DNA of 44,294 nucleotides from a bacterium (GTDB lineage Bacteria; Patescibacteriota; Patescibacteriia; Patescibacteriales; JAKAJF01), in contig JAJYLD010000002.1 in assembly GCA_021788015.1 (NCBI GenBank), positions 90,739 to 135,032 of the forward strand, in the 5' to 3' direction. Of this stretch, positions 4,361 through 42,496 are shown piece after piece. Under the pieces are notes generated by a model. The model worked only from the letters and a program-made list of their open reading frames with translations. It made no database searches and was not told where the DNA came from. Both the position numbers and the translations under genes were made by a program. Positions within the stretch are counted from its first letter, which is position 1; each line of letters begins with the position of its first letter.

Positions 4361-4951
4361 CTAACGGGGTTTATTAACTAGGATTATATTAAATCTTCCG
4401 CCCTGTCTTGTCAAGGGCTGTTCCGTTGTTATATTAAATCCTTCGGTTTCTTTAAGTTTATTCACAAAATTCATTACTGTTTCGTGCGCTTTTTCAGGAT
4501 GCTGCCTTTCGCGGCCTTTTAAAATTATTTCCAGCTTTAGCTTGTCGCCGCGTTCAAGAAATTTTTTGGCCTGGTCGATTCTGAAATCAAAATCATGCTG
4601 ACTGATACGAACGGACAGCCTTATGCCCTTGATTTCCACTTTTTTCTGTTGCATTTTCTGTTTATGCTCTTTTTTTTCTTTTTCGTATTTGAATTGGCCG
4701 TAGTCCATTATTTTGGCGACCGGAGGATTTCCTTTCGGGTCAACTTGCACCAAATCCAATTCCGCTTCGCGCGCCATTCCCAAAGCTTTATAAGTCGGTG
4801 TCGGACCGACCTTTTCACCGTTTTCATCAATTAAAAACACTTCCGGGACTCTGATCTGTTCGTTAACCCAGAATTTTTTTTCGTTGTTTTTCGGTTTTGC
4901 TCGTCTCCAAATTGTACGCATGTTAACAATTAACGGTTTAACAGATAACAA
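4361..4951 (-). CDS. infC: Translation initiation factor IF-3 (true start may be an internal Met near 4921)
   Basis: WVNEQIRVPEVFLIDENGEKVGPTPTYKALGMAREAELDLVQVDPKGNPPVAKIMDYGQFKYE. Confidence 0.96.
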   Translation of the reverse strand: MLSVKPLIVNMRTIWRRAKPKNNEKKFWVNEQIRVPEVFLIDENGEKVGPTPTYKALGMAREAELDLVQVDPKGNPPVAKIMDYGQFKYEKEKKEHKQKMQQKKVEIKGIRLSVRISQHDFDFRIDQAKKFLERGDKLKLEIILKGRERQHPEKAHETVMNFVNKLKETEGFNITTEQPLTRQGGRFNIILVNKPR

Positions 4952-4996
4952 AAATTCGTTGAAATTTAAATATTAACTGTTACCAGTTATTAGTGA

Positions 4997-5068: not shown

Positions 5069-5146
5069 TAAAAAATTAAAATGCAAAAATTAGGTAACTA
5101 TTTCGTGAAAAATTTCTTTAATAAATTTTATTCCATAATTTTTATG

Positions 5147-5230
5147 TGCCGTGGGAGGGACTTGAACCCTCATGGGATTGCTCCCAACGGATTTTAAGTC
5201 CGTCGCGTATACCAATTCCACCACCACGGC
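5147..5230 (-). tRNA. tRNA-Leu(TAA)
   Basis: GCCGTGG/CCACGGC acceptor; anticodon arm ACGGA-CTTAAAA-TCCGT; class II variable arm TGGGAGCAATCCCA. Confidence 0.93.
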
Positions 5231-5330
5231 GTATTTCTCATAACGCATAACGCAAAACGCATATCGCACACATCATTTCACAAGATTGAAAATGAGTTAT
5301 GCGTTATGCGTTACGAGTTGTGCAAAAATG

Positions 5331-5715
5331 TGGAGATGGCGAGAGTTGAACTCGCGTCTAATAAACATTCAAAAGCGTTTGTACAAAGGATAGTTCAATT
5401 TGAATTCTCGCTATATTCGTAAAAACTGAACAAAATCGACTATAGCCCAGCTCTTATTCTTTTAGATAAAGGCTAGAGCTCCTCCTCTATCCTATCCCGA
5501 TAAATGACACCCGGAACCGACTATCAGGAATCGCCGGACGGATGGTTGCGGCTATTAAGCGGCAACGGGTGCGAAAGCCGGAACTTTCCATGAGAAAGTG
5601 GCTTTTGCTAATAAGTTTTTTGCACTTATGTTTATTTTCCGATTTTTTACGTGGCTCCGGAAAAACACGCCTTGAACGCTTTTAAAAAATTTTATTATCG
5701 AATCACAACATCCCC
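5331..5715 (-). ncRNA. ssrA: tmRNA (transfer-messenger RNA)
   Basis: 5' GGGGATG pairs with 3' CATCTCC-A; T-arm GCGAG-TTCAACT-CTCGC; reading frame GCA(5623)...GCT(5558) TAA TAG encodes AKNLLAKATFSWKVPAFAPVAA; directly downstream of smpB. Confidence 0.93.
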
Positions 5716-10365: not shown

Positions 10366-10375
10366 ACAAATTAAT

Positions 10376-10464
10376 GTCATCCTGGAAGGAACGGAAGCGA
10401 CTGATAGGATCTCGCGAGAATTTCACCAGATTCTATAGCTCCACTTCGTTTGCTCCAGAATGAC
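10376..10464. repeat. Dispersed element GTCATCCTGGAAGG..CCAGAATGAC, copy 1
   Basis: Near identical to 12179-12267; imperfect terminal inverted repeat. Confidence 0.8.
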
Positions 10465-10514
10465 ATCGTGTTTTTATATTTTAATTTTAATTTGAAAAAA
10501 GCGAGCATGTGTTA

Positions 10515-12169: not shown

Positions 12170-12178
12170 ATTTTATCT

Positions 12179-12267
12179 GTCATCCTGGAAGGAGCGAAGC
12201 GACTGATAGGATCTCGTGAAATTTTCACCAAATTCTATCGCTCCACTTCGTTTCACACCAGAATGAC
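12179..12267. repeat. Dispersed element GTCATCCTGGAAGG..CCAGAATGAC, copy 2
   Basis: Shares long stretches with copy 1 (gcgactgataggatctcg; ttctat-gctccacttcgttt). Confidence 0.8.
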
Positions 12268-12358
12268 ACTTTAGTAAATGAAAAAGGCTAATTGTATTAA
12301 ACAACTAGCCTTATAAATTTATAATAGCACACACCTATGCACCTGTCAAACGGCTATT

Positions 12359-12523
12359 TTACAAACAATACCGATTGACATTGGCCATTACACGCCGAGC
12401 GATTTCCTCGGATTCCCGACGGATTTTCTCAATCTCCTTCGGAGACAATCCGGATTTGCGAAACCGAATTTCTTTTCTTTGCGAAAAAAGTTTTTTAAAA
12501 AAGGACGCCAATTTTTTAAACAT
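12359..12523 (-). CDS. Small ORF, 54 aa, basic/helical (absent from supplied track)
   Basis: MFKKLASFFKKLFSQRKEIRFRKSGLSPKEIEKIRRESEEIARRVMANVNRYCL; GGGAG SD-like sequence upstream. Confidence 0.5.
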   Translation of the reverse strand: MFKKLASFFKKLFSQRKEIRFRKSGLSPKEIEKIRRESEEIARRVMANVNRYCL

Positions 12524-12539
12524 ATTTTTTCTCCCTTAA

Positions 12540-12701
12540 TTACGTTTTAACATTTTCCCTTTCAATCCCCGCTAACTCCGGCATCATCAATTTTTTAAAC
12601 GTGCCTGTTTCTTTATCAAGCGAGCCCACTGGCCGTCCCTCGATGATTTCATACATCACCCACCGCAATAATGAAAAAGCGTTTTTAATGAACAAGATCA
12701 T
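12540..12701 (-). CDS. Small ORF, 53 aa (absent from supplied track)
   Basis: MILFIKNAFSLLRWVMYEIIEGRPVGSLDKETGTFKKLMMPELAGIERENVKT; co-oriented with neighbours. Confidence 0.42.
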   Translation of the reverse strand: MILFIKNAFSLLRWVMYEIIEGRPVGSLDKETGTFKKLMMPELAGIERENVKT

Positions 12702-12762
12702 GGTTTTTAGTCCTGTGAGTTGTTGCAGACGGAAACAGGTCTCTCTGCTTCTTTTTGATACA

Positions 12763-14265: not shown

Positions 14266-14293
14266 GTGGGAACAGAGCATGCTCCGTTCCTAC
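14266..14293. repeat. Palindromic repeat, GTAGGAAC family
   Basis: GTGGGAACAGAGCATGCTCCGTTCCTAC. Confidence 0.75.
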
Positions 14294-14343: not shown

Positions 14344-14371
14344 GTAGGAACATAGCATGCTATGTTCCTAC
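14344..14371. repeat. Palindromic repeat, GTAGGAAC family
   Basis: GTAGGAACATAGCATGCTATGTTCCTAC, perfect 28-nt palindrome. Confidence 0.82.
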
Positions 14372-16249: not shown

Positions 16250-16969
16250 ATGTCGGGACATTCGAAATGGGCGACAACTAAAAGACAAAAGGCGGTCGTT
16301 GACGCGAAGAAAGCGGCTGTCTTTACGAAAATCGCCAATATTATTTCCATAGCCGCGCGAAAAGGAGGCGATCCGGATACGAATTTTTCTTTGCGCATGG
16401 CCATTGATAAAGCGAGGGCCGTAAATATGCCCAAAGAAAATATCGAACGATCGATCAAGCGCGGAACCGGAGAGTTGGGCGGCAATCAGCTCGAAGAATT
16501 GATTTACGAAGGTATCGGCCCGGCAAAGTCGCAATTCATAATCAAAAGCGTTACCGACAACAAAAACCGCAGCGCGGCCGCAATCAGACATCTTTTTTCC
16601 GAACACGGCGGATCTCTCGGCTCGGTAATGTGGAACTTCGAACAAAAAGGCATTGTCAGAATTGAAAATTCGAAAGCCGGTGGTAAAAATTTAGAAAATT
16701 TGGAATTGGAATTGATCGAAAACGGGGCCGATGACATAAAAACGGAAGAGGAAGGAATAACGATTTACACAAAAATGGAAGATCTGCAAAAAATAAAAAA
16801 TTTCTTGGATTCAAAAGATATTTCCACCGAATCGGCCGAAATCGAATATGTTGCGAAAGAAGAAATTGATTTGGAAGGAGAAGAAAAAGAAAAGGCGGAA
16901 AAATTCATCGAAGAACTTGATGAAGACGAGGAAGTGAGCGATTATTATCATAATATTTCAAATATTTAA
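16250..16969 (+). CDS. yebC: YebC/PmpR family protein
   Basis: MSGHSKWATTKRQKAVVDAKKAAVFTKIANIISIAARKGGDPDTNFSLRMAIDKARAVNMPKENIERSIKRG. Confidence 0.95.
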   Translation: MSGHSKWATTKRQKAVVDAKKAAVFTKIANIISIAARKGGDPDTNFSLRMAIDKARAVNMPKENIERSIKRGTGELGGNQLEELIYEGIGPAKSQFIIKSVTDNKNRSAAAIRHLFSEHGGSLGSVMWNFEQKGIVRIENSKAGGKNLENLELELIENGADDIKTEEEGITIYTKMEDLQKIKNFLDSKDISTESAEIEYVAKEEIDLEGEEKEKAEKFIEELDEDEEVSDYYHNISNI

Positions 16970-17074
16970 CTCAAAACGCAAATGTCAAAACTCAAAACCA
17001 AAGCCCAAAACTTAAAACTAAAGTTTTGAGTTTTAAGATGTAGTTTTGAGATTTGAGTTTTGAGATTTGAGTTA

Positions 17075-17551
17075 ATGATCCCCAAAATTATCCTCGGCAT
17101 CGACCCTGGCATCGCTGACACTGGTTTTGGCATTATCAGTAAAGACAAAAATAAAATCGAATGCATAAATTATGGCTCGATCAAAACGCCTGCCAAAACC
17201 GATTTGAGCGAACGTCTGGAAACTATAAGCAAAGATTTGAAAACTATTATTCAGAAATACAAACCTGATTTAATTGCCGTCGAAGAACTTTTCTTTTTTA
17301 AAAACGCGAAAACCGCGTTAGTCGTCGGCCAGGCGCGCGGAGTAGTTTTACTAACGGCCAGACAAAATAAAGTTCCGCTTGTCGAATTTACTCCTCTCGA
17401 GGTCAAACAAGCGGTTTCAACTTACGGCAAAGCGGAAAAGAAACAAGTGCAACGCATGGTAAAGACGCTTTTAAATCTGAAAGAGGTGCCGGAACCGGAC
17501 GACGCCGCCGACGCTTTAGCCATCGCTATTTGCGCTTGCAATCATGCCTAG
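17075..17551 (+). CDS. ruvC: Crossover junction endodeoxyribonuclease RuvC
   Basis: KIILGIDPGIADTGFGII...VEELFFFKNAKTALVVGQARGV...YGKAEKKQVQRMV...PDDAADALAIAIC. Confidence 0.94.
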   Translation: MIPKIILGIDPGIADTGFGIISKDKNKIECINYGSIKTPAKTDLSERLETISKDLKTIIQKYKPDLIAVEELFFFKNAKTALVVGQARGVVLLTARQNKVPLVEFTPLEVKQAVSTYGKAEKKQVQRMVKTLLNLKEVPEPDDAADALAIAICACNHA

Positions 17552-19034: not shown

Positions 19035-19106
19035 ATCGCGTATCCCTATATTTCGTATCGCGCGCCCGAAAACGATGCGCGATATGCGCTATGCGATATG
19101 TGATAT

Positions 19107-20267
19107 GTGACGATGCTTTGGATAAATTTTTTGCATATTTATCAGCCGGCCAATTCGGAAAACCGACAAATAAAAGAAGCGGCGGAAAAAAGCTATGCTC
19201 GCCTGGTTCGGGCTTTGAAAAAAAATTCACGCATCAAATTTACTTTAAACGTTACGGGGTGCTTGTTGGTTCGGCTTGAAGAACTTGGTTTTAAAGAATT
19301 GATCAATCGGATAAGAGCGCTTTCCGAACGCGGACAAATTGAATTGGTCGGCTCGGCCATGTACCATCCACTCTTGCCTTTGATTCCGGAAAAAGAAATT
19401 ATGAAGCAAATCCAAGAAAACGAAAAGGTTTTAAAAAAATATTTTCCCAAAATAAAATTAAACGGATTTTTTCTTCCCGAAATGGCTTATAATGAAAAAG
19501 TGGGCCGAATCATTAAAAAATCGGGTTACAAATGGATAATTCTTGATGAAGTTTCTTATAACGGTAAGTTGGGTCAAGTTGATTTTAATAAAGTTTATAA
19601 AACCAAAAATGATTTAAAAATTATTTTTCGTTCACGAAAATTTTCGCAGATATATCTACCCGACCATAAAAGTATTCTCAAAGAAAAACTTGTAATCACT
19701 GCTACTGACGGCGAACTGTACGGATTGAGACATATTGATCCGACCGGTGAGTTTGAAAAATTTTTAAAAGAACAAAGTCTTAAAACCCAAACCGTTTCCG
19801 AATTTATTAACTCGAAAAAAAGTTCAACAAAAATAAATCCTTTGGCGGCAAGCTGGGAGACAACAGAAAAAGAAGTGAAAAAAAATCCTTTCGCCCTTTG
19901 GCAAAACAAGAACAATAAAATTCAAAAAAATTTATGGTTATTGAGCGGGCTTGCTTACGATACGGTGGAAAAATTTAAACAAGACAAAAAGTACGAATGG
20001 GCGCGCTGGCATTTGGACAGAGGTTTGGCGAGTTGCACGTTCTGGTGGGCGAGTGGCCGGGACTTCCACAAAGTTTTTGGCCCCGTGTCTTGGGGTCCCG
20101 ATGAAATCGAACGCGGCGTAAACGAACTGATTCGCGCCATCCGCAGCCTGGATGATAAAAAAACAAAAACGATAAAATTAAAAGCGGAAAAATTACATGC
20201 AAAAATCCGGCAGATGATTTGGGAGGAACATTGGAAAAAATATTGGAAACGGGACGAATCCCGTTAG
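19107..20267 (+). CDS. Glycoside hydrolase family 57-like protein
   Basis: WINFLHIYQPA N-terminus; GFFLPEMAYNEKVGRIIKKSGYKWIILDE; ITATDGELYGLRH; 386 aa. Confidence 0.85.
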   Translation: MTMLWINFLHIYQPANSENRQIKEAAEKSYARLVRALKKNSRIKFTLNVTGCLLVRLEELGFKELINRIRALSERGQIELVGSAMYHPLLPLIPEKEIMKQIQENEKVLKKYFPKIKLNGFFLPEMAYNEKVGRIIKKSGYKWIILDEVSYNGKLGQVDFNKVYKTKNDLKIIFRSRKFSQIYLPDHKSILKEKLVITATDGELYGLRHIDPTGEFEKFLKEQSLKTQTVSEFINSKKSSTKINPLAASWETTEKEVKKNPFALWQNKNNKIQKNLWLLSGLAYDTVEKFKQDKKYEWARWHLDRGLASCTFWWASGRDFHKVFGPVSWGPDEIERGVNELIRAIRSLDDKKTKTIKLKAEKLHAKIRQMIWEEHWKKYWKRDESR

Positions 20268-24373: not shown

Positions 24374-24443
24374 AATTGCTAAATTGTCAGACGATGAAAA
24401 CGTCAAAAAATCATCCGACAATTTGACAATTTGACTATTTAAC

Positions 24444-26998: not shown

Positions 26999-27044
26999 CA
27001 GAAAACAAAAAACGCTTTTTTAAAAAAGCGTTTTTTGTTTTCTG
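26999..27044. terminator. Bidirectional intrinsic terminator, perfect 46-nt palindrome
   Basis: CAGAAAACAAAAAACGCTTTTTT / AAAAAAGCGTTTTTTGTTTTCTG. Confidence 0.85.
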
Positions 27045-42316: not shown

Positions 42317-42496
42317 GGCTTTTTGCCCCTGACCGAGAAGCGGTTTTAAAGCTTTTCCGCATCCAAGTAAAGGGTAGATTAATAAATTTATGAATAAACT
42401 CTAACATAAATTGAAAAAAAAGGCAAGGTGTCGTAAAATGGAATTAGGAATTAGGAATTAGGAATTAGGAATTAGGAGGGGCATGATTCGTGGTTC

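Follow-up and report, generated by a model that had tools for sequence, protein, structure and literature searches.

The stretch of DNA analysed here (the window, 44,294 nt) corresponds to G000:C11:90739-135032; the genome to which it belongs comprises 1.13 Mb in 13 contigs, with a listed completeness of 100%. Genome size, gene content and the range of organisms in which the repeats recur point to a probable member of the Patescibacteria. The genes yebC and ruvC follow one another in the window (Table 1), and the spacer between them (16970-17074) is a single imperfect inverted repeat with 70-nt arms that are 74% complementary. None of 200 shuffles produced arms and a heptamer tract as strong as those observed. 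The predicted RNA fold has an energy of -35.9 kcal/mol, compared with -14.5 kcal/mol in shuffles (z -8.1). These values bear out the original prediction of a long imperfect inverted repeat that ends at the ruvC ATG. The focal element overlaps the yebC stop codon TAA (16967-16969) and abuts the ruvC ATG (17075). No Rfam family matches the hairpin over the gathering cut-off.

Table 1. Positions of the focal element, its neighbours and other heptamer features in the window
Feature	Position	Strand	Remarks
yebC (TACO1/YebC)	16250..16969	+	upstream neighbour
Probable ORF-less S23 hairpin element, CAAAACT family	16965..17074	+	covariance model match C11:107703-107812, 117.6 bits
Focal 5' arm	16970..17019	+	A/C-rich, CTCAAAA heptamer variants
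Fossil S23 start codon	16982..16984	+	ATG TCA AAA CTC AAA ACC (MSKLKT...); compare MSNLKTATQ of intact S23
Focal 3' arm	17022..17074	+	G/T-rich, TTTTGAG heptamer variants
Fossil end of S23 unit, TTTTAAG	17031..17037	+	kept from 3' end of S23-bearing copies
ruvC	17075..17551	+	downstream neighbour
TAACTGT-type heptamer spacer, weak	4922..4994	.	tract 3/200 shuffles
CATAACG-word hairpin	5237..5317	.	26-nt arms, 0/200 shuffles; word of CATAACG S23 clade
GCGATAT heptamer tract	19073..19110	.	best S23 arm L350
AATTGTCA/TGACAATT hairpin	24374..24431	.	significant, 2/200 shuffles
GGAATTA heptamer array, no inverted arm	42440..42477	.	perfect, 5.4 copies

Heptamers in the intergenic spacers

Genes were called with a hexamer model in 396 kb sampled from the genome, and dinucleotide shuffles served as the reference for the 243 spacers. 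In these spacers, 785 exact 5-mer repeats occur at a lag of 7 nt against 133 expected (z 52), and the signal echoes at 14 and 21; the coding DNA of the sample has no lag-7 excess. A heptamer tract is present in 52 of the 243 spacers (2.4 expected; two coding controls). The words of the spacers are therefore heptamers, and this 7-nt period is a common property overlooked at the first reading of the sequence. When all spacers were scored, an inverted repeat beyond that of 100 shuffles was found in 36 of 243, compared with 2.4 expected and five of 243 coding controls, which upholds the view that spacers are more self-complementary than shuffled sequence. The accompanying idea that each spacer has its own lexicon does not hold, since words recur within and between genomes.

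A dispersed hairpin family

Full-length copies of the focal hairpin occur at other places in the same genome, with non-self scores of 113, 105, 101 and 91 bits. Shuffling the focal hairpin in heptamer blocks, which keeps the words and loses their order, gave a maximum of 73 bits in 60 trials; because the non-self scores fall this far, the order of the heptamer variants is inherited. A covariance model of the family yields 50 hits with E up to 1e-3, which represent 26 places counting both strands. One of these places (C1:313754) consists of another word. The CAAAACT family, as we refer to it, is about 105 nt long, with about 25 copies in the genome. Covariation in the solo hairpins (those without an ORF) is not significant, and no target-site duplication was obvious by inspection at the 26 copy boundaries. 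Solo hairpins are co-oriented with their flanking genes in a ratio of 17:2, at stop/start junctions.

The family was found in 32 of 60 genomes searched, belonging to several families of the order. A 21-mer of the focal 3' arm is present in at least 113 stretches from many phyla, and the full hairpin of about 110 nt also occurs in Microgenomates, Roizmanbacteria, Verrucomicrobiales and others. It had been supposed that the hairpins do not represent a mobile family, a view that is not supported. Since its non-self copies score above the block shuffles, the focal hairpin is a member of a dispersed family, and one that recurs in other families and phyla.

S23 genes within heptamer arms

At some CAAAACT loci, picked by the word alone, the arms stand 365-390 nt apart and enclose an S23 ORF (PF05635, 23S_rRNA_IVP). 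CAAAACT arms surround S23 in L258, L233, L204 and L145. S23 is about 16 times denser near the CAAAACT word, on small counts (five near and two far matches). The source genome has nine PF05635 matches, most of them within arms, and the words around its S23 types differ (CAAAACT, GTAGCTT, CTAAATT, TTCAATT and others). Across 36 genomes, inverted arms unmatched by any of 50 shuffles surround 83 of 96 S23 genes; 13 lack arms at this level. Inverted arms were seen at four of 71 control genes of similar size, all taken from the source genome. Repeats in the S23 arms peak at lag 7 (737 against 91 expected). An S23 unit is then some 0.4-0.5 kb long, with two inverted arms of degenerate heptamers around the gene.

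S23, also called 'four helix bundle protein', turns up frequently in cyanobacterial and metagenomic genomes and has, to our knowledge, no known function. We know of no nuclease, transposase or reverse transcriptase domain in S23, and no catalytic residue was found. Phages were rejected as a vehicle: the core pattern is absent from viral contigs, and a single-protein query found no S23 relative there.

The arm words follow the protein. Between S23 genes of different genomes the arm-word cosine is 0.42 at 60-80% identity and about 0.05 below 50%; in opposite orientation, S23 pairs show no sharing of arm words. Clades of the S23 tree match word classes, and the period classes 7, 8 and 9 undergo nine changes on this tree, compared with a shuffled mean of 20 (minimum 17). 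With one word per S23 lineage, the intergenic repeats seem unrelated yet have a common design. The early observation that the sequences are unrelated but share one architecture, lie in spacers and often touch start codons was correct in this sense, the different words being those of different S23 lineages. In some S23 clades the arm period is 8 or 9 rather than 7 (AATAAAATA..., AGTCCATAA...).

Remnants of the S23 reading frame

The CAAAACT-type S23 ORF starts within the left arm, where AAATGTC is read as A-A-ATG-TC; the intact gene begins ATG TCA AAT CTC AAA ACT GCA ACG CAA (MSNLKTATQ). Either ATGTCAAA or ATGTTAAA is kept on the model strand in 19 of the 26 solo hairpins, with 18 of the 19 at one offset, and the start is found on the opposite arm in none of the 26. 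TTTTAA near the loop is retained in most solo hairpins. Three S23 units, with the 5' end joined to the 3' end, are 75-84% identical to nine solo hairpins over about 105-115 nt, and the focal copy is 76-78% identical to ORF-deleted S23 units over about 106-110 nt. This fossil ORF is the strongest evidence for the solo hairpin being a shrunken S23 element.

Association with S23 and placement

The lag-7 ratio ranges from 0.3 to 1.8 in genomes without S23 and from 1.7 to 11 in those with S23 (Mann-Whitney p 1e-4, phylogeny ignored), and the lag-7 excess tracks the presence of S23 (Spearman 0.77, p 3e-4, again with phylogeny ignored). The CAAAACT family itself is more closely associated with S23 (Fisher p 1e-4) than with Y1_Tnp (p 0.06), in a comparison that likewise ignores phylogeny. 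Genome G001, of the same family as the source genome, has S23 and lacks the CAAAACT family.

Two genomes of one genus (G022 and G042), with flanks that are 95-98% identical, differ by one S23 unit, present in one of them, where it separates a stop codon from the following ATG, and absent from the other. The difference is a gain or a loss, and could be a loss. At the yebC|ruvC junction the spacer is 40 nt or less in 26 of 49 genomes, and hairpins or arrays of other words occupy it in about 15 (by inspection). S23 units share the direction of both neighbours in 75 cases and oppose both in one; a ratio of this kind would also be expected of ordinary genes in an operon, but not of insertions in random orientation.

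Hairpin inserts in 23S rRNA

The 23S rRNA gene of the source genome is 3339 nt long, compared with 2925 positions in the model, and three hairpin inserts lie within it (L043 3935-5439, G000:C6). The insert near E. coli nt 235 carries the CTAAATT word. The others, which we take from the flanking sequence to be in helices 25 and 45, are TAACAATT/AATTGTTA and a 26-nt stem, respectively. A search of this rRNA for an S23 ORF found none. Helices 25 and 45 are the classical sites of intervening sequences (IVSs; PMC4990558).

Comparison with known elements

The IVS of Coxiella burnetii, 428 nt in length, has an S23p ORF in terminal inverted repeats that form a 28 bp stem (PMC4990558). The resemblance to the S23 units extends to the four-helix-bundle ORF between stem-forming terminal inverted repeats, the sporadic distribution and the hairpins held by helices 25 and 45 of the source genome. 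In contrast to IVSs, most copies here lie between protein, tRNA and tmRNA genes, many have no ORF and the arms are degenerate heptamers whose word class follows the S23 clade. Since it is located between yebC and ruvC, outside the rRNA gene, the focal copy is an intergenic relative and not a strict IVS. The mobility of IVSs is only hypothesised and their origin is described as unresolved (PMC4990558). As in miniature inverted-repeat elements (MITEs), there are dispersed short inverted-repeat copies without an ORF and a coding parent, the S23 unit; unlike MITEs, there is no transposase and no target-site duplication, and the parent encodes S23 only. We conclude that an S23 element, related to the IVSs of 23S rRNA, gave rise to the focal hairpin as a MITE-like derivative without an ORF, a reading to which we assign a probability of about 0.85.

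Plasmid-borne S23 genes are nearly all cyanobacterial. Eight of ten such loci have inverted heptamer-type arms unmatched in 50 shuffles, with words that include TAGGGAG, GGGAACA, GGGAAAA and CAGGAGT among others, and in another of the ten, long arrays of direct heptamer repeats flank the gene on either side. Three of the ten units interrupt CRISPR-cas gene clusters. On the plasmids of L361, L363 and L366, co-directional S23 units lie between cas6/cas4 and between cas10/cmr2 and cmr3, bordered by arms or arrays of the heptamer type.

Rickettsia palindromic elements and REP/BIME also include several palindrome families that are alike in build, unrelated in sequence and found together in one genome. 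These differ from the present hairpins in their tags (GTAG, CGTC; PMC3733652) and size, and heptamer arms are not known to have been described for them; the focal family (about 105 nt, no terminal tag seen) is likewise distinct from the 20-40 nt REP/RAYT palindrome with its GTAG. Repeats of 7 bp with no known function are an established feature of cyanobacteria; relevant here are their short tandemly repeated repetitive sequences (STRRs) and the P6b stems of the Nostoc trnL intron, made of heptanucleotides with the motifs TDNGATT and NNTGAGT (PMC2670836, PMC4476775). The STRRs and Nostoc P6b share with our elements stem-forming 7-nt repeats, and the Class II motif NNTGAGT fits our TTTGAGT. Tandem degenerate heptanucleotides in spacers, as in STRRs, were also found here, both in the lag-7 signal and at the flanks of cyanobacterial S23. 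The difference is the link to S23, which is made here from ten plasmid loci only and does not appear in the consulted passages of those reports (PMC4476775, PMC2670836). Intergenic heptamers near start codons or in inverted pairs are also reported from Beggiatoaceae, as direct repeats of TAACTGA (PMC4679880), and from Xanthomonas, as GGGAATC repeats (PMC4692102). Xanthomonas campestris has an S23 protein (XCC0516, PDB 2gsc), and we predict that both sets of repeats are related to S23.

Alternative explanations

Heptamers with so strong a period, in arms and spacers alike, might be assembled locally, replication slippage and template switching building each hairpin in place. Heptameric repeats are over-represented in bacteria generally, with slippage the proposed cause (PMC4679880), and direct arrays without inverted arms do exist (42440-42477). 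Slippage of this kind does not explain why the variant order is conserved between copies far above heptamer-block shuffles, why the same hairpin of about 110 nt occurs in other phyla, why solo hairpins retain a fossil S23 start and end or why genomes without S23 show no lag-7 excess. The local generative process of the original prediction is contradicted for the CAAAACT family, in which variant order is conserved and the focal hairpin derives from an S23-encoding element, and we consider it quite unlikely there; for isolated tandem arrays it is possible. The tandem arms and their 7-nt period probably owe something to slippage, which does not, however, give rise to the hairpins in place. REPs are moved by RAYTs, which are Y1 tyrosine transposases (PMC3733652), and a REP-like element mobilised in this way would also leave dispersed intergenic palindromes; Y1_Tnp matches are present in 40 of 60 genomes searched. 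The source genome has only two partial matches, G047 combines a strong lag-7 signal with zero Y1_Tnp, the correlation is weaker than for S23 (rho 0.50; Fisher p 0.06) and the elements measure 80-120 nt, not 20-40, which makes this explanation very improbable.

The very stable predicted fold, the position at stop/start junctions and the fixed orientation with respect to neighbours (17:2 for solo copies, 75:1 for S23 units) would suit a host regulatory RNA, that is an intrinsic terminator, an attenuator or an mRNA-stabilising hairpin. We think this unlikely, given that no Rfam family reaches threshold, that covariation is not significant and that the yebC|ruvC junction is empty in about half of the relatives and holds unrelated words in others. 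A secondary regulatory use of the hairpin is possible. S23 is related to Avd, an accessory protein of DGRs, and retro-mobility, with S23 working alongside a reverse transcriptase, would account for the orientation bias with transcription since RNA-level copying would give the same. RVT_1 is absent from the source genome and from the S23-rich G007, G022, G025, G042 and G051, so the polymorphic pair G022/G042 is among the RVT_1-free genomes, and such a partnership is distinctly unlikely. Neither RAYT nor reverse transcriptase is consistently present, and both were rejected as consistent partners.

A possible mechanism and its significance

For the S23-derived hairpin, the following scheme may apply. 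The arms would be recognised by S23 or a partner, and S23 units would move or be copied in a manner dependent on the pairing of arm and S23. In co-transcribed genes, units would survive between one stop codon and the following start codon, presumably because insertions elsewhere are purged. By analogy with IVSs, RNase III probably cleaves the RNA within the stem, in which case the yebC and ruvC messages would be separated harmlessly. Slippage with a 7-nt period could continually renew the arms.

A wider and more tentative proposal, to which we give slightly less than even odds, is that S23 marks a pan-bacterial class of mobile hairpin, so far unrecognised, whose small four-helix-bundle protein would recognise its own 7-nt-repeat arms, each S23 clade determining the word and its period (7, 8 or 9 nt); 23S IVSs, cyanobacterial heptanucleotide repeats and the pervasive intergenic 'word' hairpins of Patescibacteria would be its products. 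IVSs and S23 are already known; the link of intergenic heptamer hairpins to S23 is made here, and full-text searches of an open-access library yielded nothing that connects such hairpins or STRRs to S23. The correspondence of S23 clade and word would provide a concrete recognition code and explain several classes of heptamer repeat together. ORF-bearing, ORF-less and empty alleles occur naturally and can be used for experiments.

Other sites and repeats in the window

The same architecture had been attributed to further sites in the window. Each was tested singly, inverted arms and heptamer tract being compared with 200 shuffles, and the attribution proved right in part. Hairpins are present at 5236 and 24376, the former in the gap between tRNA-Leu (5146-5230) and tmRNA (5328-5715). 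Sites 19036 and 770 have significant heptamer tracts (0/200 shuffles each) and no significant inverted repeat or hairpin, 4921 and 3931 (13/200 shuffles) are weak, and 16137 has no signal above chance in 200 shuffles. Matching of k-mers to S23 arms is clear for the focal hairpin and 5236, marginal for 19036 and 4921 (just over the best of 50 shuffles) and no better than shuffles for 24376, 3931, 770 and 16137; the word at 24376 is similar to that of the AATTGAC S23 clade, with a k-mer match not above shuffles. Not every hairpin in the window need belong to S23 elements.

The region 758-908 contains an element of about 97 nt whose outer words are AT-rich and whose inner hairpin is GC-rich; it shares more than 90% identity with a copy at C9:7684, and that copy is 95% identical to another at C11:20046. 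A second perfect GGAATTA heptamer array, with about 12 copies and without inverted arms, is located at C13:2362-2513. A dispersed repeat that is not heptameric (TGTCATCCTGGAAGGAGCGAAGCG...) occurs at 10366-10514 and 12170-12762, the pair being 89% identical, and sequences resembling it lie in other parts of the genome. A pair of similar palindromes, GTGGGAACAGAGCATGCTCCGTTCCTAC and GTAGGAACATAGCATGCTATGTTCCTAC, is found beside the bact-PGI_C gene (14266-14293 and 14344-14371), and positions 26999-27044 form a perfect 46-nt palindrome (CAGAAAACAAAAAACGCTTTTTTAAAA...).
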